A stretch of DNA of 64,000 nt from Magnetovibrio sp. (lineage in GTDB: Bacteria; Pseudomonadota; Alphaproteobacteria; Rhodospirillales; Magnetovibrionaceae). The position numbers and the translations under genes are program-made. Shown in pieces: positions 6,593 through 51,347 of this stretch (its first letter is position 1; every line of letters begins with the position of its first letter). The DNA lies in NCBI GenBank assembly GCA_026196495.1, contig JAPHSY010000033.1, positions 124,001 to 188,000 on the forward strand, read 5' to 3'. Under the pieces are notes generated by a model, which saw only the letters and a list, made by a program, of their open reading frames with translations, had not been told where the DNA came from and made no database searches.

Positions 6593-7033
6593 TTATAGGT
6601 GTGGACTGTGAAACGGCTTTAGCGTTAGGGGCCTGTCGTTCCAATTAAAATTAAATTTATTATCGATTTTGTTAAAACCATTGATGGATGGGTAATGATG
6701 GCCAAGCCACAAGAGACAGAGCATCACCTTGCGTGAATTGTTATCGGCAAAACCGTCCAATAAAATTTGGCCAAGTAAATTCAATGGGGTAGGGTTTGGG
6801 GCTGAGTCTGAGTGTGGGGTGTTGGAGGGTGTCATGCGGGCGGATAAATTGGCTAAGTATTCATCCATGGCAAACAAGCCTTGGTCTTCAAATTCACGCA
6901 GAGATTTTTGAGTCAGGCAAAACTTAAGGTTTACTCCGTCCAACATGACATTAATCGTTCGGGATGATTCCTGCGGGAGGCGTTCGAAGCCTTGCTCAGC
7001 ATCCGTCGCGTTGTTGGGGTGTGGAGTGGTCAT
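6593..7033 (-). CDS. Hypothetical protein, 146 aa
   Basis: I do not recognise this protein. It has a conserved-looking N-terminal block (SSRTINVMLDGVNLKFCL), a Pro/Thr/Ser-rich linker near residues 67-85, and a C-terminal LLGQILLDGF...VMLCLLWLGHHYPSI helix that could be a buried segment. Codon choice looks coding. The ATG at 7033 has no Shine-Dalgarno on the coding strand; the complementary strand carries AGGAGG there instead, so an internal start such as the ATG before LDGVNL is possible. No operon partner is apparent. Confidence 0.5.
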   Translation of the reverse strand: MTTPHPNNATDAEQGFERLPQESSRTINVMLDGVNLKFCLTQKSLREFEDQGLFAMDEYLANLSARMTPSNTPHSDSAPNPTPLNLLGQILLDGFADNNSRKVMLCLLWLGHHYPSINGFNKIDNKFNFNWNDRPLTLKPFHSPHL

Positions 7034-7187: not shown

Positions 7188-8375
7188 TTAGGCGCCAAAA
7201 GCCTGCAGCCCGGTTTGGGCCCGTCCCAAAATAAGGGCATGAATATCGTGTGTGCCTTCGTAAGTGTTTACGGCCTCCAAGTTCATCAAGTGTCGGATCA
7301 CATGAAATTCATCAGATATGCCGTTACCGCCGTGCATATCCCTTGCTTGGCGGGCAATATCTAAGGCTTTGCCGCATGAATTGCGTTTGAGCATGGAAAT
7401 GGATTCGGGTGCACCTTGTCCATCATCAATCATACGCCCTAAACGTAGGCAGGCATTGAGGCCTAAGGTGATTTCGGTTTGCATATCTGCCAGCTTCTTT
7501 TGCACCAATTGCGTGGCCGCTAAGGGGCGGTCGAACTGTTTGCGTTCTAAGGTGTAGTTGAGCGCGGCATGCCAGCAAAACTCTGCCGCACCTAAGGTCC
7601 CCCAGGCAATGCCATAACGAGCCTTGTTGAGGCATCCAAATGGACCTTTAAGTCCTGAAATTTCATGAAAAATATGAGTTTCAGGGACAAAAACCTGATC
7701 CATCACAATTTCACCCGTGATAGAGGCACGAAGTGAGAATTTGCCTTCAATTTTGGGAGTGGAAAGTCCTTCTGCGCCACGCTCCACGACAAATCCACGG
7801 ATAACACCATCCAACTTGGCCCAAACCACGCAAATATCTGCGATGGGAGCGTTGGTGATCCACATCTTTGTCCCTGTCAGGACATAACCACCATCAACCT
7901 TTTCAGCGCGGGCGCGCATGGAGGCGGGGTCTGATCCGGCGTCGGGTTCAGTTAGGCCAAAGCAACCAATCAGTTCACCAGTTGCCAGTCTTGGCAAGTA
8001 TTGGTGCTTCAATTCATCTGTGGCATAGGCATAAATTGGGTACATCACCAATGATGACTGAACGCTCATGGCGGAACGATAACCACTATCGATTCGTTCG
8101 ATTTCGCGTGCCACCAGGCCATAGGCTACATGCGTGACGTTGGCGCAGCCGTAGTCTTCGGGCAGGGTTGGGCCCAATAGACCCAAAGCGCCCATCTCGG
8201 TCATAATTTCTGGATCGAAGGTTTCGTTGCGGTTGGCTTCGATAATGCGCGGCAACAGCTTGTTTTGAGCATAATCGTGAGCCGTGTCGCGGATAAGTCG
8301 TTCGTCTTCAGTGAGTTGATCTTCCAACAAAAGTGGGTCTTGCCATTGAAAATGCGGTTTTGAAGAGTTTGGCAT
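7188..8375 (-). CDS. gcdH: Glutaryl-CoA dehydrogenase-type acyl-CoA dehydrogenase
   Basis: A flavoprotein of the acyl-CoA dehydrogenase family; the closest group is glutaryl-CoA dehydrogenase, which oxidises and decarboxylates glutaryl-CoA to crotonyl-CoA in lysine/tryptophan breakdown. Seen: [12 protein letters not shown] (FAD/substrate loop), [53 protein letters not shown] and the catalytic-base region [10 protein letters not shown]. The ORF track begins at 8435, but the ATG at 8375 (MPNSSKP) has GGAG seven bases upstream and gives normal family length (395 aa). No glutarate-pathway partner is adjacent. Confidence 0.88.
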
Positions 8376-8477
8376 GGGATAGCTCCACCAAGGACATCGA
8401 AACAACTCATCCAGTGTTACCAGTAATGATAACACCTGTCATGTTTAGGCTTATTCCCTGCGATTATGTTTGGGTCA

Positions 8478-9149
8478 CTAGCTTTTTGAGAGAGTTTGAT
8501 GGGTGGTGCTGGTGGCAATGGTTGTCAGGAGGGTATAAATTTTACCGTTGATGTCTTGTTTGCTTTTGATGGTGACTTTCAGTTCGATCCCATCACCACC
8601 CCACCAGCGATAGTTACAGCGCGGTGTATCGCCCATGTGATCGCGTTCGCATTTGGCTTCAATTGGCCGACCATATGCTCGTCCATATATCTTCATCACG
8701 TCTTTTTCCGTGAACTTGGTAAAGAACTGGTCATTGCGCAGACGGAAAATCCGCTTTTCGAAGTTGTTATAAAGTTCCCCATCAACGCGGGTATGTGCCT
8801 TTGGCGTAAAAAATGAAGCGCTAATCATGCCTGATTTGGTCCGCAGGGTGAGCATTTTTTCGCCAGGGCGATTTTCTTGCATTTGAGCATGAGGGTATAG
8901 CTTCTTGACCATTTTTTCAGTCATGCCAATGCGAATGCCAGCAATGTCAAAACGATTATTGATGAAGCGGTCGTTGAGAAAGAAGGATACTTCCGGGTCC
9001 AAATCACCACTTTCATCGTCATCACTGACCACAAGCAAATTTTCCATGGTCGCCTGAGATGCAGAGACATACCAGTTCACGCCAACGAGGGCGATAATCA
9101 TCAACACAGAAATGGTCAGCGTGTGGCGCAAATACATGGGCTGGTTCAC
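8478..9149 (-). CDS. Membrane-anchored protein of a C-x-Y-x-W paralogue family (member A)
   Basis: Unknown function. One N-terminal hydrophobic segment (about residues 8-28) precedes an acidic linker and a soluble domain, likely periplasmic. The domain starts with FDIAGIRIGMTEKMVKKLYP and ends with YGRPIEAKC, ten residues, CNYRWWGGDGIEL. The same order (IRIGM block, then GRP, Cys, about ten residues, C-x-Y-x-W, glycine-rich strand) recurs in the adjacent gene ending at 9165 and in the gene at 48264. The two cysteines would suit a disulfide in the periplasm. It starts 15 nt after the upstream paralogue, so the two are one operon. Confidence 0.7.
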   Translation of the reverse strand: MNQPMYLRHTLTISVLMIIALVGVNWYVSASQATMENLLVVSDDDESGDLDPEVSFFLNDRFINNRFDIAGIRIGMTEKMVKKLYPHAQMQENRPGEKMLTLRTKSGMISASFFTPKAHTRVDGELYNNFEKRIFRLRNDQFFTKFTEKDVMKIYGRAYGRPIEAKCERDHMGDTPRCNYRWWGGDGIELKVTIKSKQDINGKIYTLLTTIATSTTHQTLSKS

Positions 9150-9164
9150 TCTGTCCGTTTCACA

Positions 9165-9929
9165 TCAATACTGGTTGGAATTGCCGATTGTGGTGGACAA
9201 GTTGGCCCGGCGGATGCGGCCTTCTAGACGGGTGTCGGTGGCCATCATGGTAACGTTAATATCTGCATTGGGGATGGATGGGTCGCGACGACTGATCATG
9301 TCTAAACGCAACTCTCCGGGCATCCACCAGCTATATTGGCATTCCTGCATGGCATCCGTTAAACGACGGTTGCATGATGTGACCGAAGGGCCACCGTAAC
9401 GCTTAGATACATTACGCACGAACTCCTCTTCACTCAAATCGGTTACGGTGTGATTGCGTCGTGCTTTGTATGCGATATGGTAGGGACCATCTTCGCCGTA
9501 CCAAACGGTATAATCGCCATCTGTATCGTTATAAGACAGGGTCACCGCCCCATTTGCAGCCATGGCTTTATGAGCATCGGGATGATCTTTGCGCAGAACA
9601 TCCATAGTGGTCCCCAGTTTGACATTGCCAAGTTGATAACCGGTTCGTTCTTTCATGCCAGCCATGGAAAAGAATGTGCTGATTTTGAATTCCATACCTG
9701 GGGTCATTTTGATCATGACAAAGGAACCCAAAATCAAGAAAGCGAACAAGCACATCAAAACCAATGTTTTGATATCATTGTCCTTTTCCTGGCGTTTTAA
9801 GCCTGCTGTGGGGCGTGTTTTGGGTTTCGATTTGGTTTTGGAGGATTGGTAGTACAAGATATCGTCGCCAAAATCGTACTCTGGCGTTTTATCTTTCTTG
9901 TGTATGCGATTGGCAGGCGTATAAGCCAT
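9165..9929 (-). CDS. Membrane-anchored protein of a C-x-Y-x-W paralogue family (member B)
   Basis: Unknown function; paralogue of the next gene in the operon. A Lys/Arg-rich cytoplasmic tail of about 50 residues (DKTPEYDFGDDILYY then KTKSKPKTRPTAG) is followed by one membrane segment (about 53-74, LVLMCLFAFLILGSFVMI). The outer domain carries YQLGNVKLGTTMDVLRKDHPDA, then YGGPSVTSC, ten residues, CQYSWWMPGELRL. Glycine and cysteine positions match member A. The long tail is absent from members A and C and may contact a cytoplasmic partner. First gene of a two-gene operon. Confidence 0.7.
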   Translation of the reverse strand: MAYTPANRIHKKDKTPEYDFGDDILYYQSSKTKSKPKTRPTAGLKRQEKDNDIKTLVLMCLFAFLILGSFVMIKMTPGMEFKISTFFSMAGMKERTGYQLGNVKLGTTMDVLRKDHPDAHKAMAANGAVTLSYNDTDGDYTVWYGEDGPYHIAYKARRNHTVTDLSEEEFVRNVSKRYGGPSVTSCNRRLTDAMQECQYSWWMPGELRLDMISRRDPSIPNADINVTMMATDTRLEGRIRRANLSTTIGNSNQY

Positions 9930-43377: not shown

Positions 43378-43622
43378 GTGGATTTTTCGTGAAACTAATG
43401 CATATGGCGTACTGCACTTGTGGATTGTTTCGGTACAATTCAGCTTGAGGGGCTTGAAACATTTGTGTTACGCCTTGAACCATCTGATGCGAGATGGGTG
43501 CCCGTACAATTGTACAAACGGTTGGGGAACCGGGGGCTCATCTTCAAAAATATCGCAAGTGCATGAGGTAGTGCGCTTGTGTTGACATAAAAACTGAATT
43601 GGGAATTTCGGAGGAAACTACC

Positions 43623-44636
43623 GTGAAAAAAACATTTACCGTATTGGGTGTAGTGGCTGCAGCCATGCTTGCTACGTCCGCTTCAGCAGGTACTTTAGAA
43701 GACGTCAAAAAACGCGGCACATTGTCTTGTGGCGTGAGCACCGGTCTTCCGGGCTTCTCTATCCAAGATGAAAAAGGTAACTGGACGGGTCTCGATGTTG
43801 ATACCTGCCGTGCTGTTGCTGCTGCAGTTTTGGCTGATGCCAACAAAGTGCGCTTTGTTCCGCTGACCGCCAAAGAACGTTTCACCGCGTTGCAATCTGG
43901 TGAAATCGACATTCTTTCGCGCAACACGACTTGGACGCACACCCGTGATACGTCCTTGGGCCTGAACTTTGCCGGCGTAAACTACTACGATGGTCAAGGT
44001 TTCTTGGTGCAAAAAGCTCTTGGTGTGAAAAGTGCTCTGGAACTGGACGGTGCATCTGTCTGTATCCAAGCTGGTACCACCACTGAGCTGAACTTAGCTG
44101 ACTATTTCCGTGAACATGGCATGAAGTACTCTGCTGTTGTGTTTGATACGTCGGACCAAACCCGCGAAGGTTTTGAAGCCGCACGTTGCGACATTCTGAC
44201 CTCTGATCAATCTCAGCTCTATGCAATCCGTTCTAAACTGGGTAATCCCGGCAGCGCTATGGTGTTGCCAGAAGTCATTTCCAAAGAACCGTTGGGCCCT
44301 GTTGTCCGTCAAGGCGACGATGCTTGGTTTAATATTGTGAAATGGACCCTGAACGCATTGATCAATGCTGATGAAATGGGTGTTACTTCTGCAAACGCAA
44401 AAGACATGTCCATGGGTACCAACCCAGGCATCAAGCGTCTGCTGGGTACCGAAGGTGATGCAGGTGCTAAATTGGGCCTCAGCGCAGATTGGGCAATGAA
44501 CGCCGTTATCCAAGTTGGTAACTATGGCGAAATGTTTGATCGAAACGTTGGTCCAAAAACGCCTCTGGCCATCTCTCGTGGTTTGAATGCTCTGTGGAAC
44601 AAAGGCGGCATCTTGTATGCCCCGCCAGTCCGCTAA
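43623..44636 (+). CDS. aapJ: General L-amino acid ABC transporter binding protein
   Basis: The start is GTG at 43623 with GGAGG nine bases upstream; a signal peptide (KKTFTVLGVVAAAMLATSASA) follows. The mature part is the AapJ type: KRGTLSCGVSTGLPGFS, GLDVDTCRAVAAAVL, RFTALQSGEIDILSRNTTWT, CIQAGTTTELNLADYF. Broad-range amino-acid uptake is known for the rhizobial Aap system. Two conserved Cys pairs are typical. First gene of aapJQMP. Confidence 0.95.
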   Translation: MKKTFTVLGVVAAAMLATSASAGTLEDVKKRGTLSCGVSTGLPGFSIQDEKGNWTGLDVDTCRAVAAAVLADANKVRFVPLTAKERFTALQSGEIDILSRNTTWTHTRDTSLGLNFAGVNYYDGQGFLVQKALGVKSALELDGASVCIQAGTTTELNLADYFREHGMKYSAVVFDTSDQTREGFEAARCDILTSDQSQLYAIRSKLGNPGSAMVLPEVISKEPLGPVVRQGDDAWFNIVKWTLNALINADEMGVTSANAKDMSMGTNPGIKRLLGTEGDAGAKLGLSADWAMNAVIQVGNYGEMFDRNVGPKTPLAISRGLNALWNKGGILYAPPVR

Positions 44637-44650
44637 GTCTTGAAACTGAT

Positions 44651-44690
44651 CCGGCCATGTCCATGAGGGCGTGGCCGGTTTGGTTTTTAC
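44651..44690 (+). terminator. Intercistronic hairpin after aapJ
   Basis: CCGGCCA and TGGCCGG form a perfect 7-bp GC-rich stem followed by TTTGGTTTTT. In transporter operons such a structure commonly limits read-through and stabilises the binding-protein mRNA, giving more AapJ than permease. Confidence 0.7.
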
Positions 44691-44749
44691 CTGTATGAAT
44701 AATTGCGTTTTCTAATGGAAAGCGTACAGGGGACGGGAGAGATGGGCTC

Positions 44750-45931
44750 ATGGCGGACCCAGTAAAAACTCAAAGTAAAACGGCGATATGGAATGATCCT
44801 ACGTTCCGTTCTATTGCCTTTCAGGTAATTGCTGGTGTCGCAATTGTCTGGACCTTCTGGGCACTTTTTGACAATACAATGACGAACATGGAGCGCCGTG
44901 GGATTACCACTGGTTTTGCTTTCCTGAACGAAACTTCTGGTTTCGGTATATTGATGTCCCTCATTGAATACGATGAAACACATACGTATGGACGTACGTT
45001 CCTTGTCGGTTTGCTCAACACATTACTCATTTCTGTACTTGGGATTTTCGCAGCCACAATTTTGGGCTTTATCCTGGGTGTTGCTCGGCTTTCCCGCAAC
45101 TGGTTGATTTCCAAAATCGCTGCTGTGTACGTTGAAATCCTGCGCAACATCCCCTTGCTGCTTCAAATTTTCTTCTGGTACATCGCCGTGTTGCAGACTT
45201 TGCCGCATCCGCGCAAAAGCTTTAATTTTGCGGACAGCTTCTTCCTCAATGCTCGGGGCTTTTACGTTCCTGGTCCTGTGCCGGAAAGTGGCTTCAATAT
45301 TGTGTTGGTGCTGTTCTTTACAGCTATTATTGCGACGGTGTTTATTGCGCGTTGGGCGCGTAAACGTCAGGACCTGACGGGCCAACAGTTCCCGGTATTC
45401 TTAACAGGGTTCGGATTGATTATTGGTGTGCCTGTTGTCATATTCTTCATTTTGGGTGCGCCGATGTCTTTTGACTATCCGGCGTTGAAGGGGTTCAACT
45501 TCCAAGGCGGAATTACCGTAATTCCAGAATTGATTGCGCTTTGGTTGGCGTTGTCGATGTACACAGCAGCCTTTATTGGTGAAATTGTGCGGGCCGGTAT
45601 TCAAGGGGTGAGCCACGGTCAAACCGAAGCAGCCCATGCTTTGGGTATTCGCCACAACCCGACGCTTCGTTTGGTGATTGTTCCCCAAGCGATGCGGATT
45701 ATTATTCCACCGCTGACTTCACAATATTTGAACTTGGCGAAAAACTCATCATTGGCCACGGCTATTGGATATCCGGATTTGGTGGGTGTGTTTATGGGCA
45801 CAACTCTCAACCAAACAGGTCAAGCTTTGGAAATTGTTGCCATGACGATGGCGGTTTACTTGGTTATGAGCTTGTTGATCTCAGCGTTTATGAACTGGTT
45901 CAACAACCGCATGGCGTTGGTCGAAAGATAA
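44750..45931 (+). CDS. aapQ: General L-amino acid ABC transporter permease
   Basis: A 393-residue inner-membrane permease of the polar amino-acid family with the AapQ-specific large insert. LLNTLLISVLGIFAATILGFILGVARLS starts the BPD domain and EIVRAGIQGVSHGQTEAAHALGI is the EAA loop. TSQYLNLAKNSSLATAIGYPDLV is highly typical. It begins 113 nt after aapJ and ends 13 nt before aapM. Confidence 0.95.
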   Translation: MADPVKTQSKTAIWNDPTFRSIAFQVIAGVAIVWTFWALFDNTMTNMERRGITTGFAFLNETSGFGILMSLIEYDETHTYGRTFLVGLLNTLLISVLGIFAATILGFILGVARLSRNWLISKIAAVYVEILRNIPLLLQIFFWYIAVLQTLPHPRKSFNFADSFFLNARGFYVPGPVPESGFNIVLVLFFTAIIATVFIARWARKRQDLTGQQFPVFLTGFGLIIGVPVVIFFILGAPMSFDYPALKGFNFQGGITVIPELIALWLALSMYTAAFIGEIVRAGIQGVSHGQTEAAHALGIRHNPTLRLVIVPQAMRIIIPPLTSQYLNLAKNSSLATAIGYPDLVGVFMGTTLNQTGQALEIVAMTMAVYLVMSLLISAFMNWFNNRMALVER

Positions 45932-45944
45932 GGGGAGTGAGATT

Positions 45945-47045
45945 ATGAGAGATTTTAAAGCGCTTCCCGATCTTGCTCCGCCACTTGTTGCCAGAGGTGT
46001 GATTGGCTGGGCTCGGGAAAATCTGTTTTCGACACCTTTGAATTCAGTGATGAGTTTGATCGTCATTTACATTTTGTATCTGACGTTGGTCCCGATCATT
46101 GATTGGGTGTTTGTCTCATCCGTGTTTTTAGGAGATGACAAAACAGCTTGTGAAGGCATAACAGGAGCATGTTGGGCGTTTATTGGTAATCGTTTGCCGA
46201 TCTTTGCCTATGGCAGCTATCCGGCTGCTGAATATTGGCGTTTGGAAACTTGTTTCGTCTTGTTGCTGTTTTCATTTGGGCCTCAGTTCTTTGAGAAGTT
46301 TCCGTACAAATTGCCATTAGGGATTTTCTCTCTGACGCTGTTCCCTGTGATTTGTTACTTCCTTATCGCAGGCGGCTACTTTGGCCTTGAACATGTTGAG
46401 ACCGAAAAATGGGGCGGATTGGCACTGACCTTGATGATTGCCTATGTCGGCATTGTTGCGGCTTTGCCGTTTGGAGTTGTGTTGGCATTGGGGCGTCGAT
46501 CTGACATGCCCGTGATCCGCACATTCTGTATTGCCTTCATCGAACTGTGGCGCGGTGTACCGCTGATTTCAGTGCTGTTCATGTCATCCGTGATGTTGCC
46601 GTTGTTTTTGCCTGATGGCATGAACTTCGACAAGCTCCTTCGGGCTTTGATTGGAATTACGATGTTCCAGTCAGCCTATATGGCAGAGGTAATCCGTGGT
46701 GGCTTGCAAGCCATTCCACGTGGGCAGTACGAAGCCGCCAAAGCCTTGGGGTTGAGTTACTGGAAAAGCATGTCACTGATTATTTTGCCACAAGCCTTAA
46801 AATTGGTGATTCCGGGTATTGTGAATACCTTCATCGCTTTATTTAAAGACACCACCTTGGTGTTGATCATTGGCCTGTTGGATATCTTGGCAACGGTACA
46901 AGCCGCTATCACCGATCCGGCATGGGGTGCCGTTGCGACGGAAGGCTACGTTTTTGCAGCCGCTTGTTTCTGGGTGTTCTGTTTTGGGATGTCTCGTTAC
47001 TCGATTAAGTTGGAGCAAAAACTTCACACAGGTCATAAACGCTAA
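45945..47045 (+). CDS. aapM: General L-amino acid ABC transporter permease
   Basis: The partner permease of AapQ, 366 residues. LALTLMIAYVGIVAALPFGVVLALGRRSDMPVIR, IELWRGVPLISVLFMSSVMLPLF and EVIRGGLQAIPRGQYEAAKALGL are the family features; KDTTLVLIIGLLDIL is also conserved. RBS GGGGAG lies ahead of the ATG. Confidence 0.95.
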   Translation: MRDFKALPDLAPPLVARGVIGWARENLFSTPLNSVMSLIVIYILYLTLVPIIDWVFVSSVFLGDDKTACEGITGACWAFIGNRLPIFAYGSYPAAEYWRLETCFVLLLFSFGPQFFEKFPYKLPLGIFSLTLFPVICYFLIAGGYFGLEHVETEKWGGLALTLMIAYVGIVAALPFGVVLALGRRSDMPVIRTFCIAFIELWRGVPLISVLFMSSVMLPLFLPDGMNFDKLLRALIGITMFQSAYMAEVIRGGLQAIPRGQYEAAKALGLSYWKSMSLIILPQALKLVIPGIVNTFIALFKDTTLVLIIGLLDILATVQAAITDPAWGAVATEGYVFAAACFWVFCFGMSRYSIKLEQKLHTGHKR

Positions 47046-47063
47046 GCAGTAGGAAATTGGTTC

Positions 47064-47819
47064 ATGGAAAACGCAAACACTAACGAACTGGCTGTCCAAC
47101 TGTCGGGCGTCAATAAATGGTATGGTGAGTTTCATGTCTTGAAAGACATCAATCTCAACGTTACGCCGGGTGAACGGATTGTTATTTGCGGGCCTTCGGG
47201 TTCGGGTAAGTCGACGATGATCCGTTGCATCAACCGCTTGGAAGAACATCAAGCCGGACAAATCATTGTCAATGGGATCGAGCTGACTGAAGATGTGAAA
47301 CGTATTGATGAAGTCCGCCGCGAAGTCGGCATGTGCTTCCAACACTTCAATTTGTTTCCACACCTTACGGTTTTGGAAAATTGTACCTTGGCCCCCATCT
47401 GGGTGCGCAAGATGCCAAAGAAAGAAGCTGAAGAAATCGCCATGCATTATCTGGAGCGAGTTAAAATTCCAGAACAGGCAGGCAAGTTCCCAGGACAGCT
47501 TTCCGGTGGTCAGCAACAGCGTGTGGCAATTGCGCGCTCACTGTGCATGGCACCGAAAATCATGCTGTTTGATGAGCCGACCTCCGCTCTTGATCCAGAA
47601 ATGATCAAAGAGGTTTTGGATGTCATGGTCGAATTGGCAGAAGAAGGTATGACCATGTTGTGTGTGACCCATGAAATGGGTTTCGCCAAGTTGGTTGCCA
47701 ATCGCGTAATCTTTATGGATGCGGGACAAATTGTTGAAGAAAACGAACCGCATGAATTCTTTGACAACCCACAAAATGACCGCACCAAATTGTTCTTGAG
47801 CCAAATTCTGAACCACTAA
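47064..47819 (+). CDS. aapP: General L-amino acid ABC transporter ATP-binding protein
   Basis: Walker [19 protein letters not shown], signature [16 protein letters not shown], Walker [14 protein letters not shown], switch [11 protein letters not shown]: the polar amino-acid type (GlnQ/AapP). Begins 18 nt after aapM and ends 15 nt before the small gene that follows. Confidence 0.95.
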
Positions 47820-47834
47820 GCGGGGAGTGGCATT

Positions 47835-48110
47835 ATGTCACCAGCACACAAAAGCCTACGTGATCGCGCTGAAGCTACCAAGACGAAGATGTTGGAAATT
47901 CTTGGTGTGCCAAGTGATGGGCATGATGAGGAAATGGTGAAAGCCATTGAGGCAACCATTATTGATGCGTTGTTGGAAGAACGTGAACGTTGTGCCTCAG
48001 TTGCGTTTGATCATGTTCTTCCTGAAGACCGAGATCGCGCCCACAAGGTTTCAGAAGAAATCAAACGGGTCCGCAATGCTTTGGCTGCGAACTTGGGTAG
48101 CTTGCGATAG
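47835..48110 (+). CDS. Small helical protein at the end of the aap operon
   Basis: Not recognised. It has 91 residues, no membrane segment, and is mostly helical: a short basic start, then IEATIIDALLEERERCASVAFDHV and DRDRAHKVSEEIKRVRNALAANL. GGGGAG precedes the ATG and only 15 nt separate it from aapP, so it is co-transcribed; a terminator follows. The single mid-protein Cys and charged helices suggest a small cytoplasmic binding protein, function unknown. Confidence 0.7.
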   Translation: MSPAHKSLRDRAEATKTKMLEILGVPSDGHDEEMVKAIEATIIDALLEERERCASVAFDHVLPEDRDRAHKVSEEIKRVRNALAANLGSLR

Positions 48111-48136
48111 CTTTCGCAATGAAAAATTGATTTTGG

Positions 48137-48171
48137 AAACGGACAGCATTGATTGTGTTGTCCGTTTTTTT
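48137..48171 (+). terminator. Rho-independent terminator of the aap operon
   Basis: AAACGGACA and TGTCCGTTT form a perfect 9-bp stem, 13-nt loop, followed by TTTTA. It closes aapJQMP and its small trailing gene. Confidence 0.85.
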
Positions 48172-48263
48172 ATGTCCAGGGATCACCAATTTGCGCTAAG
48201 CGGCATATTGTGTAATCAGTTATGCTGGGCTCATTTACTCCGTATAAGAGCCTCTCGAGATGG

Positions 48264-48902
48264 ATGAGCACCGACATGGACCGCGACATACTTAAAATTA
48301 TAACCTGGATACTCTTGGTCATGGCCATGGTGCTGGGGGCGTATTGGCTCAATGCTGACAATACGGGCTTTGATTTGAAGTGGGGTGCCTTGTGGAAAAA
48401 GGATGAGCCGGAACCGATCTTCATGGGTGTGGTCTTTTCCCGCAGTGACAAAACAAATATTCAGTTTTCCGGCGTGCGGATTGGTATGAATGTTTCGGAT
48501 TTAAAAATCCCGTACACCCAAAAGACCAGTTCTATCGGCAATCCGTATATTGAGTACAGGGCTCAAGATGGGCAGCTCTATCAATCACGTGTGGTGGAAA
48601 CCAACCAAGGGCCCCAAATTCTTGATGTGCGATTTAAGAAAATGACGGGGCCAATGCATTACGATGCGCTGGAACGCAAGCTAGCAATCACGTTTGGGAG
48701 GCCACTGTCTGTATCTTGTCAAAAACTTATCGGTGAGCGCCGCACATGTTCCTACACCTGGCATGGCGGTAATGGTGTGCGTGTTGTCGGTACGTTGACG
48801 CAACATGAAAGGGGCGCGTGGACCATTGATGTTTTTGCTTTGGATGCTGTGGCGGCAGGGCGTATCAAACGGCGTGCTGGGGAAGGGCCTTTAAACCCCT
48901 GA
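48264..48902 (+). CDS. Membrane-anchored protein of the C-x-Y-x-W paralogue family (member C)
   Basis: A third relative of the tandem pair near 8.5-9.9 kb, lying 38 kb away. From the ATG at 48264: a short cytoplasmic start, one helix (about residues 8-28, IITWILLVMAMVLGAYWL), then IQFSGVRIGMNVSDLK, FGRPLSVSC, nine residues, CSYTWHGGNGVRVVG. The aromatic after Tyr-x-Trp is His instead of Trp. It has its own leader after the aap terminator. Start could also be 48276. Function unknown. Confidence 0.68.
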   Translation: MSTDMDRDILKIITWILLVMAMVLGAYWLNADNTGFDLKWGALWKKDEPEPIFMGVVFSRSDKTNIQFSGVRIGMNVSDLKIPYTQKTSSIGNPYIEYRAQDGQLYQSRVVETNQGPQILDVRFKKMTGPMHYDALERKLAITFGRPLSVSCQKLIGERRTCSYTWHGGNGVRVVGTLTQHERGAWTIDVFALDAVAAGRIKRRAGEGPLNP

Positions 48903-49045
48903 AGACGATGAGTTCGTTTGCTTAAACACATACAGCCCAATGGCATATTGACTGAATGGCAGCGTGTTTTGGGGCTTCGATATGTTTTTTGGTATTTTTA
49001 CTACATACATATGTATTGCGGCCAATTTTGGGTATGATTGTGTCT

Positions 49046-49798
49046 ATGAGCTCTAAATTCCAAATACTCTCAGTCTTCGTTGTCGTCTTTTGCTTAAGTG
49101 TTGCCGGTGGCGTAAAGGCTCAAGATCAGTCCCCACAAGGCGATCGCAATCTTTTGCGATTTGGCATTATGGCGCTAGCCCCTTATGGGTTTCAGGACAA
49201 CAACGGCAATTGGGTTGGCAATCTGTATGAGATTGCAGATGCGATCATTGCCGAAGGGGGATTTGAGGGCTATTCCCAAGTTGTTCCACTGAAGCGTTTG
49301 TTTCAAAAAGATCGATTGGATTGCTCCATTGCAGGGGCAGTTCCTTTTATGGAGAAGAATTACGCCCGTGTTGCTAGTTTGGGGCAAGAGCTTGTGTTCG
49401 GAATCATGCCGTTGAAACAAGTAACCCTGAATGCATATGAAGATTTAAAGGAGCTTGTGATCGCGGTGCCACTTGGCGTCAATGTTGGGTTGCCATTTGA
49501 TGAAGATGAGCGTTTGAAAAAAATTGAGGTTCGCGACTATTCAGCAAGTATGCGAATGCTTGAGAGAGAGCGTGTGGATGCTGCAGCAGGGGTTATCAAC
49601 TCTCTTTTGTTCAGTGCCAGAATTTATGATGTGGATGAGGATAAATTTGGAGAGCCATTGGTCTTTAGTAGTTTGCCTTTGAATGTTTACTGTGAGCGAG
49701 AGTCTATTACGCGTGGGTACTGGGACCAGATTGATGCTGCAGTTGAGGCTCTTAAGTCCAAAGGTGAAATTGACCGAATCATGAAGAAGTATCAGTAA
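49046..49798 (+). CDS. Periplasmic solute-binding-like protein (SBP_bac_3 type)
   Basis: A signal peptide (SSKFQILSVFVVVFCLSVAGGVKA) and a type 3 binding fold: LLRFGIMALAPYGFQDNNGNWVGNLYEIADAII, KDRLDCSIAGAVPFMEK, LKELVIAVPLGVN, DYSASMRMLERERVDAAAGVI, and a C-terminal ALKSKGEIDRIMKKY typical of extracellular solute-binding proteins. No transporter genes adjoin, so it is an orphan binding or sensory protein. ATG at 49046 is chosen because the signal peptide then begins properly; 49034 is possible. Confidence 0.75.
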   Translation: MSSKFQILSVFVVVFCLSVAGGVKAQDQSPQGDRNLLRFGIMALAPYGFQDNNGNWVGNLYEIADAIIAEGGFEGYSQVVPLKRLFQKDRLDCSIAGAVPFMEKNYARVASLGQELVFGIMPLKQVTLNAYEDLKELVIAVPLGVNVGLPFDEDERLKKIEVRDYSASMRMLERERVDAAAGVINSLLFSARIYDVDEDKFGEPLVFSSLPLNVYCERESITRGYWDQIDAAVEALKSKGEIDRIMKKYQ

Positions 49799-49868
49799 GC
49801 TAATATTAGTTGCATTCAACGCGCTGTGCTAAGATTCCATTTGCGCCAATATGTTAAGGGGGAAGAAC

Positions 49869-51347
49869 ATGTTCGAAGCTGCAGAATTGGGCCATAAAGT
49901 CAGCAAAGCCACCTACAAAACCGAAGTTCCGAAATTGCGTGAGCAATTGCTGGATGCACAGTTTGAACTGGGAGAAAAGAAGCCGTTTCCTGTGGTCATC
50001 ATCGTTTCCGGTGTCGATGGGGCCGGTAAAGGTGAGGCCGTCAATACACTGAACTTTTGGATGGATCCGCGCAACATCCATGCCCATGCGCTGGGTGATC
50101 CCACCGACGAAGAATTGGAACGCCCGGCCATGTGGCGTTATTGGCGTAAGTTGCCGCCCAAGGGGGCCATCGGGTTCTTCTTTGGTTCTTGGTACAGCCA
50201 CCCCATGCGCATGCACATCGACGGCGGTAAGAGCCGTGATTATTTAGACAGTTACCTAGACGATTTTTTGCGCTTTGAACGCATGCTGGCGGACGAGGGA
50301 GCCCTGGTCTTGAAGTTTTGGCTCCACCTGTCCAAGGACGCGCTTAAGGACCGTCTGACGCAATTGGAGGGCGATAAGGCCACCAATTGGCGCGTGACCA
50401 AGAAGGACTGGGAACGCTATGAGCGTTATGACGATCTGATGCCCGTTGCCGAACATGTCCTGCGCCGCACCTCTACAGGCCATGCACCGTGGATTGTGGT
50501 GGAAAGCACGGATGAAAAATATCGCAATTTGACGGTCGGGCGCACGCTGTTGAAGGCTGTTAAGGCGCGCTTAGCCGAACAAGGCAAACCCGCCACCGCC
50601 TCAGTCCCCGTTCAGGCCTTGGATCATGCCGATGACATCAATTTGTTGGATGCTTTGGACTATACCAAGACGTTAGAGAAAAAAGCCTACAAGAAAGAGT
50701 TGGAAAAATACCAAGGTCGCTTGAATAAGCTGACACGGTCCAAAGCATTCCGTGATCGTGGCATGGTTTTGGTGTTTGAAGGCAACGATGCCGCCGGGAA
50801 GGGCGGTTCAATTCGCCGTGCTTGTGCCGCCATGGATAGCCGTTTTTACGACATCATCCCCATTGCCGCACCAACGGATGAGGAAAAGGCTCAACCCTAC
50901 CTCTGGCGGTTCTGGCGCCATCTGCCTGGGATTGGCAAAACCGCGATCTTTGATCGGTCTTGGTATGGTCGTGTGTTGGTGGAACGGGTTGAAGGCTTTT
51001 GTTCCGAAGCCGACTGGCTTAGGGCTTATGGCGAAATCAACGATTTTGAAGAAGAAATGGCACGCCATGGCATCATTGTTCAAAAATTCTGGCTGTCGAT
51101 TACTGCGGACGAGCAGCTTCACCGCTTCAATGAACGCGAAGCCACAGGCTACAAACGCTTTAAGCTGACCGACGAAGATTGGCGCAACCGCGACAAGTGG
51201 AGTGAATATTCCAACGCTGTTTGTGACATGGTGGAACGCACCTCAACCGAAATCGCACCGTGGACCTTGGTGGAAGCCAACTCCAAGTACTACGCGCGCA
51301 TTAAGGTACTGAAGACCTTGTGCAAGCGGTTGGAGGAAGAGCTTTAA
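49869..51347 (+). CDS. pap: Polyphosphate:AMP phosphotransferase (two-domain PPK2)
   Basis: Transfers phosphate from polyphosphate to AMP, giving ADP. Two tandem PPK2 domains: the first has Walker A VSGVDGAGKGEA, the second EGNDAAGKGGSIRRAC near residue 305. Only the C-terminal domain keeps the lid/catalytic DRSWYGRVLVERVEG; the N-terminal equivalent is FFGSWYSHPMRM, lacking DR, as expected for an inactive first domain. 492 residues is family length. The ATG has GGGGGAAG seven bases upstream. Confidence 0.93.
   Translation: MFEAAELGHKVSKATYKTEVPKLREQLLDAQFELGEKKPFPVVIIVSGVDGAGKGEAVNTLNFWMDPRNIHAHALGDPTDEELERPAMWRYWRKLPPKGAIGFFFGSWYSHPMRMHIDGGKSRDYLDSYLDDFLRFERMLADEGALVLKFWLHLSKDALKDRLTQLEGDKATNWRVTKKDWERYERYDDLMPVAEHVLRRTSTGHAPWIVVESTDEKYRNLTVGRTLLKAVKARLAEQGKPATASVPVQALDHADDINLLDALDYTKTLEKKAYKKELEKYQGRLNKLTRSKAFRDRGMVLVFEGNDAAGKGGSIRRACAAMDSRFYDIIPIAAPTDEEKAQPYLWRFWRHLPGIGKTAIFDRSWYGRVLVERVEGFCSEADWLRAYGEINDFEEEMARHGIIVQKFWLSITADEQLHRFNEREATGYKRFKLTDEDWRNRDKWSEYSNAVCDMVERTSTEIAPWTLVEANSKYYARIKVLKTLCKRLEEEL

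Follow-up and report, generated by a model that had tools for sequence, protein, structure and literature searches.

What are the three membrane proteins, here called A, B and C, that are encoded in a 64,000-nucleotide stretch of a Magnetovibrio genome (the window), and what might they do? An initial annotation, made from the letters of the DNA, had taken them for an undescribed family of three single-pass proteins with a C-x-Y-x-W signature, two of them forming an operon, and had suggested a paralogous envelope sensor or assembly system. The features of the window to which we refer are the following, the anchors and the outer domain being predictions.

9165-9929, minus strand: protein B, 254 aa, the founder copy, found across the whole range of the family (ORF, homologues, synteny, tree)
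9849-9884, minus strand: conserved stretch PEYDFGDDILYY in the cytoplasmic tail of B, present in seven B proteins from genera g1 and g3
9711-9767, minus strand: transmembrane anchor of B, about residues 55-73 (hydropathy 2.68; helix 45-75 in the model)
9234-9638, minus strand: outer domain of B, residues 98-232, alpha-beta4-alpha-beta4 (pLDDT mostly >90)
9372-9374, minus strand: Cys186 of B, invariant in 57/57 members
9339-9341, minus strand: Cys197 of B, invariant in 57/57 members
8478-9149, minus strand: protein A, 223 aa, paralogue in tandem with B and 15 bases downstream of it
9066-9122, minus strand: transmembrane anchor of A, about residues 10-28
8649-8651, minus strand: Cys167 of A (alignment)
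8616-8618, minus strand: Cys178 of A (alignment)
48222-48902, plus strand: protein C, 226 aa, dispersed and fast-diverging paralogue, nearest to the A type
48288-48344, plus strand: transmembrane anchor of C, about residues 23-41 (evidence includes the model)
48717-48719, plus strand: Cys166 of C (evidence includes the model)
48747-48749, plus strand: Cys176 of C (evidence includes the model)
7188-8435, minus strand: gcdH-like acyl-CoA dehydrogenase (Pfam), a conserved downstream neighbour outside the family, given for context

Gene layout

The reading frames lie where the initial annotation had placed them. C has two possible starts, 48222 and an in-frame ATG at 48264 (residue 15 of the longer ORF), the latter being the position given initially; the start codon of A is GTG. 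Each of the three proteins has a single hydrophobic helix, in agreement with the proposed single anchor. On the minus strand the order is B, a 15-base gap, A and then the gcdH-like gene. A scan of a kind that gives weak evidence found no terminator-like site between these genes on their strand, and in promoter and terminator scans sites were no commoner than in shuffles. B and A could be one transcription unit. Of the proposed operon, the tandem arrangement on one strand is real and cotranscription is only possible. Between nadA and gcdH lies a 146-aa ORF (6593-7033) that has no Pfam match and is kept in Magnetovibrio relatives (~40-48% identity).

A, B and C form one family

A profile from which the A-type sequences and C had been left out detected A with E=4e-29 and C with E=4.5e-15, while the best of 9,000 shuffles of A, B and C reached 2.2 with the same profile. 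Therefore, the shared pattern is real and chance is excluded. On this sequence evidence, A, B and C are homologous and constitute one family, as the proposed paralogy had it. Pairwise BLASTP connects A with C (3e-07) and A with B (7e-07), and in the order-wide search C matched the family profile with E=6.6e-42. When 60 relatives were searched, query A recovered 20 genomes, query B 27 and query C 7; query C retrieved A-type proteins in relatives, and no clear C orthologue was found among the 60.

The family is restricted to one order in the samples searched

The profile search proposed with the initial annotation found further members, all in one order, and what had been described as a family of three proteins has at least 57. 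Within the order, 317 genomes of 115 genera were searched, and 56 of these genomes, representing 23 genera, have a member. Among named records, close relatives come from Magnetovibrio species, of which M. blakemorei MV-1 is one, and from Rhodospirillaceae/Thalassospiraceae MAGs; B itself is present in Magnetovibrio blakemorei. Because of these named records, and because NCBI places Magnetovibrio in Rhodospirillales, Magnetovibrionaceae, we take the surveyed order to be Rhodospirillales.

Outside the order, nothing convincing was found in class samples of 387 and 385 genomes (largely overlapping) or in a phylum sample of 399, searches in which a first-look filter scored at most seven candidates per genome and rare diverged members could be missed. 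The out-of-order matches were marginal, most of them over the anchor helix, and were rejected as members; the best (in G859) is a type IV pilin. In the samples searched, the family was thus found only in Rhodospirillales.

A mobile-element origin was also considered and rejected: relatives of A were absent from plasmids, those of B from phage records and those of C from viral contigs.

Conserved residues and membrane topology

In an alignment of 57 members (residues are numbered as in B), mean column identity is 18% and only the two cysteines are invariant (57/57). The next-best conserved positions are G106 and W201 (56/57 each), G179 (55/57), P181 (54/57), and P117 and D232 (51/57 each); E167 is conserved in 45/57. 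Wherever the anchor was located (56 members), exactly two cysteines follow it. L127 was left out of this count because its called start lies past the anchor, so that the hydropathy rule chose the wrong stretch; both cysteines are present in its aligned sequence. The conserved cysteine pair of the initial annotation is therefore a property of the whole family, with spacing C-x10-C in A and B and C-x9-C in C. Its C-x-Y-x-W signature survives in part: both cysteines and the Trp are kept, the Tyr and the second Trp/His vary, and the family-wide motif is the looser G-x-P-x4-C-x(about 10)-C-x3-W. Together with the cysteines, G106, P117, G179, P181, W201 and D232 look like structural-type positions, and no set of His, Ser or acidic residues typical of a catalytic site was found at the strongly conserved positions of the 57 members.

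The mean charge is +3.2 before the anchor and -0.2 after it (positive-inside), the bias for an inward N-terminus being seen in only 40/57 members. The outer domain probably lies on the periplasmic side, with the N-terminus inside. In-frame stops reported for two members, L028 (G001) and L031 (G008), are the natural protein ends, and these genes are intact.

Predicted fold and cysteine pair

AlphaFold2 models of B and C were made from a 15-sequence alignment, and since the same sequences entered both, the two models are not fully independent. The pLDDT of the outer domain is mostly >90 in B and mostly ~90 in C. Both models have one element order, alpha-beta4-alpha-beta4-alpha, with a first helix that is short in B and very short in C. 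Unrelated folds, or matches to different known families, had been named initially as evidence against kinship; B and C share one predicted fold, and none of A, B and C matches a known family.

In the models, Cys186 and Cys197 of B sit on strands 183-188 and 195-203, and Cys166 and Cys176 of C on strands 163-168 and 174-181. The hairpin register sums agree (B, 186+197=188+195, or 383; C, 166+176=168+174, or 342), and therefore the cysteines are predicted to face each other across the hairpin in both proteins. By alignment, the hairpin loop of A is longer (~12 residues). The invariance of the pair and its register in the models agree with a disulfide, which would staple one beta-hairpin.

Searches of family and structure libraries

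A, B and C all score below the cut-offs of the Pfam and NCBIfam models. Across the 34 members that made up the first alignment, no Pfam/NCBIfam family appears repeatedly, and the PDB sequences that matched the first profile did so by chance, for example cytochrome b at the anchor helix. The family, rightly called undescribed, is uncatalogued in the libraries searched and was missed by automatic annotation. One Pfam candidate, DUF7256 (PF23917), was rejected at 16.7 bits against a cut-off of 27, with 2 of the 34 members matching, weakly. No DUF7256 members were found in 40 genomes of the order, where control searches were also silent, and a literature search on DUF7256 found nothing.

Foldseek comparison of the models with solved and viral structures gave no match with E<0.001, and TM-scores of the listed matches to solved structures were mostly near or below 0.4. 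With both models, Mog1/PsbP-type domains turn up repeatedly at this weak level: PsbP, CyanoP and Tsi3, the last of which we take to be a member of this fold group. These matches have probabilities up to 0.99, E >0.001 and TM ~0.4 or below; PA1624 is also among the weak matches of the C model. The N-domain of PA1624 is distantly Mog1p/PsbP-like, and DcrB is a membrane-anchored periplasmic member of the group (PMC7716261). Because no match has E<0.001 and TM-scores are mostly ~0.4 or below, the modelled PsbP-like resemblance is only a lead to a mode of action and not a claim of membership.

Gene neighbourhood and duplication history

The family gene lies upstream of gcdH (>=67% identity), on the same strand, across five families (f1, f6, f9, f21, f27); of the 46 loci fetched, 16 have the two genes no more than ~210 bases apart. 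kdsC is often found upstream on the other strand, and in the window's family the B site follows pabBC and precedes gcdH or nadA. The conserved neighbours (gcdH, nadA, pabBC, kdsC) are metabolic and look like the product of inherited gene order; other neighbours vary by lineage and thus point to no single partner.

B, a positional orthologue, is the ancestral copy and occupies the syntenic site kdsC-family gene-gcdH; A is a tandem duplicate of B. Orthologues of A adjoin B in four genomes (G001, G002, G003, G007). In the tree, A-type genes from four relatives form a group with A, and C is placed among them (support 64/99), the exact place of C being unsure because its branch is very long (2.94). 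A separate, second tandem pair occurs in f27 (G451, G455, G457, G459). The family gene has thus duplicated independently at least twice, giving A in the window's family and the tandem pair in f27. For 30 relatives that lack the family, a search for diverged hidden copies covered 20 gcdH loci and their flanks and found none; therefore, absence there means loss or non-gain at the site. The family has perhaps been lost in many relatives.

Several other surroundings were recorded. Around C (43599-51347), an Aap-type amino-acid ABC operon is followed by C, a second family-3 solute-binding protein and a PPK2 polyphosphate kinase gene. In f17 (L128, L129), the family gene comes directly after an AcrB/HlyD pair of the same strand; a protein with an adenylate/guanylate cyclase domain is encoded upstream of this pair. 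In f27 (genus g306; L132, L135), nitrile hydratase genes and gcdH lie downstream of a tandem pair of family genes, and the beta subunit of the nitrile hydratase is divided between two ORFs, one for its N part and one for its C part. Molybdenum hydroxylase subunits (MoCoBD, FAD-binding, 2Fe-2S) lie near the family gene in f10 and f14 (L109, L110) and partly in f16 (L111), and in f6 the gene order makes a branched-chain amino-acid ABC transporter apparent nearby.

Possible functions

The best explanation, which we put forward tentatively and at somewhat less than an even chance, is that the family provides a non-catalytic, disulfide-stapled periplasmic binding or adaptor domain on an inner-membrane anchor. 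A, B and C would each have the N-terminus inside, one inner-membrane helix and a compact alpha/beta domain held in the periplasm, where the oxidised cysteine pair would staple one beta-hairpin. The outer domain might then bind a partner or a small ligand at the membrane surface, without catalysis, in an accessory or adaptor role in the manner of DcrB/PsbP-like domains. Duplication of an ancestral single-copy B would have given A beside it and C elsewhere, and A and C may serve different partners. The adaptor reading is supported by the invariant cysteine pair, the paired hairpin positions, the positive-inside charge, the structural type of the conserved residues and the recurring Mog1/PsbP-type matches.

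The tail of B bears on another explanation, a transmembrane sensor in which the outer domain senses a ligand or redox state and the cytoplasmic stretch relays the signal to a partner. The long basic/aromatic tail described initially is found in B only, and it includes a short conserved stretch whose motif, (P)[DE][YLI]D[FY]GD, is common to seven B proteins of two genera (g1, g3). The cysteine pair could be redox-sensitive, and in the genus a gene for a diguanylate cyclase is found three genes upstream. However, the motif is missing from A, C and the B-type proteins of other families, most tails being merely basic, and a structural disulfide accounts for the cysteines. The neighbour survey and Pfam scans found no signalling domain and no kinase, cyclase or sigma-factor partner conserved across the range; outside the genus, the conserved neighbours include no regulator. 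We regard the envelope sensor of the initial annotation as unlikely.

Its other suggestion, an assembly system, fares no better, since no dedicated partner was found and no relationship to BamE-like factors was detectable with hhalign. A BamE/SmpA/BLIP-type factor, in which two alpha-beta repeats scaffold outer-membrane or cell-wall machinery, would fit the '[IV]xxG[MT]T' block and following helix, which hhalign aligns with the BamE block in the same register, and the two alpha-beta4 halves of the model. Yet membership of BamE/SmpA/OmlA (PF04355) was rejected (hhalign P 0.1-0.34, not significant; no Pfam match), as was an internal repeat of the two halves (half against half, P 0.05-0.1). BamE/BLIP structures are absent from the 50 best Foldseek matches listed, and a real BamE exists in nearly all genomes searched, including the window's own. 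Such a role is improbable.

An accessory subunit that docks on neighbouring ABC or RND systems and aids substrate capture is suggested by the position of C between the Aap-type operon and a solute-binding protein, by the AcrB/HlyD pair that the gene follows in f17, and by the branched-chain amino-acid ABC layout near it in f6 and one f1 genome (from gene order and sizes; one ATPase matches the window's ABC ATPase). The transporter is a different one each time, however, most loci have no adjacent transporter, and C has no clear orthologue in the relatives searched, which leaves this explanation a slim chance. A bolder form of the adaptor reading, in which the outer domain is a fold unrepresented among solved structures, A, B and C are paralogous periplasmic adaptors and the YDFGD stretch of B docks a cytoplasmic partner across the inner membrane, we consider a long shot. 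As conserved polar residues, D232 (51/57) and E167 (45/57) could be functional, but a periplasmic enzyme of unknown chemistry is very improbable, given that no constellation of catalytic or metal-binding side chains is conserved and that the hotdog-thioesterase matches in Foldseek are weak and local.

Relation to known systems

The analysis defines a protein family limited to one order, which has a clear signature and is overlooked by automatic annotation. B is a useful test case: it is a single-copy gene at a syntenic site, has been duplicated on at least two independent occasions and is missing from many relatives. If the DcrB/PsbP-like adaptor reading is true, the recurrent duplication would hint at new envelope partners in Rhodospirillales, the order of the magnetotactic genus Magnetovibrio. 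The general kind, a small membrane-tethered periplasmic domain, is known and common; the family itself is new.

Three known systems can be set beside it. With DUF7256 (PF23917), the likeness is a 35-residue stretch of A around FDIAGIRIGMT that aligns with E=0.006. With BamE/SmpA/OmlA and the BLIP fold, the family shares a helix after the G-[MT]-T block and tandem alpha-beta halves, whereas a true BamE is encoded separately in nearly all genomes searched. The Mog1p/PsbP-like domains (DcrB, PsbP/CyanoP, the PA1624 N-domain) resemble it in their antiparallel sheet with helices and in being periplasmic or lumenal, often membrane-associated and accessory in role. Unlike them, the A/B/C family has no sequence or Pfam match to the group and a fold score that is not significant, is anchored by a helix rather than a lipid, and carries an invariant cysteine pair in its hairpin.
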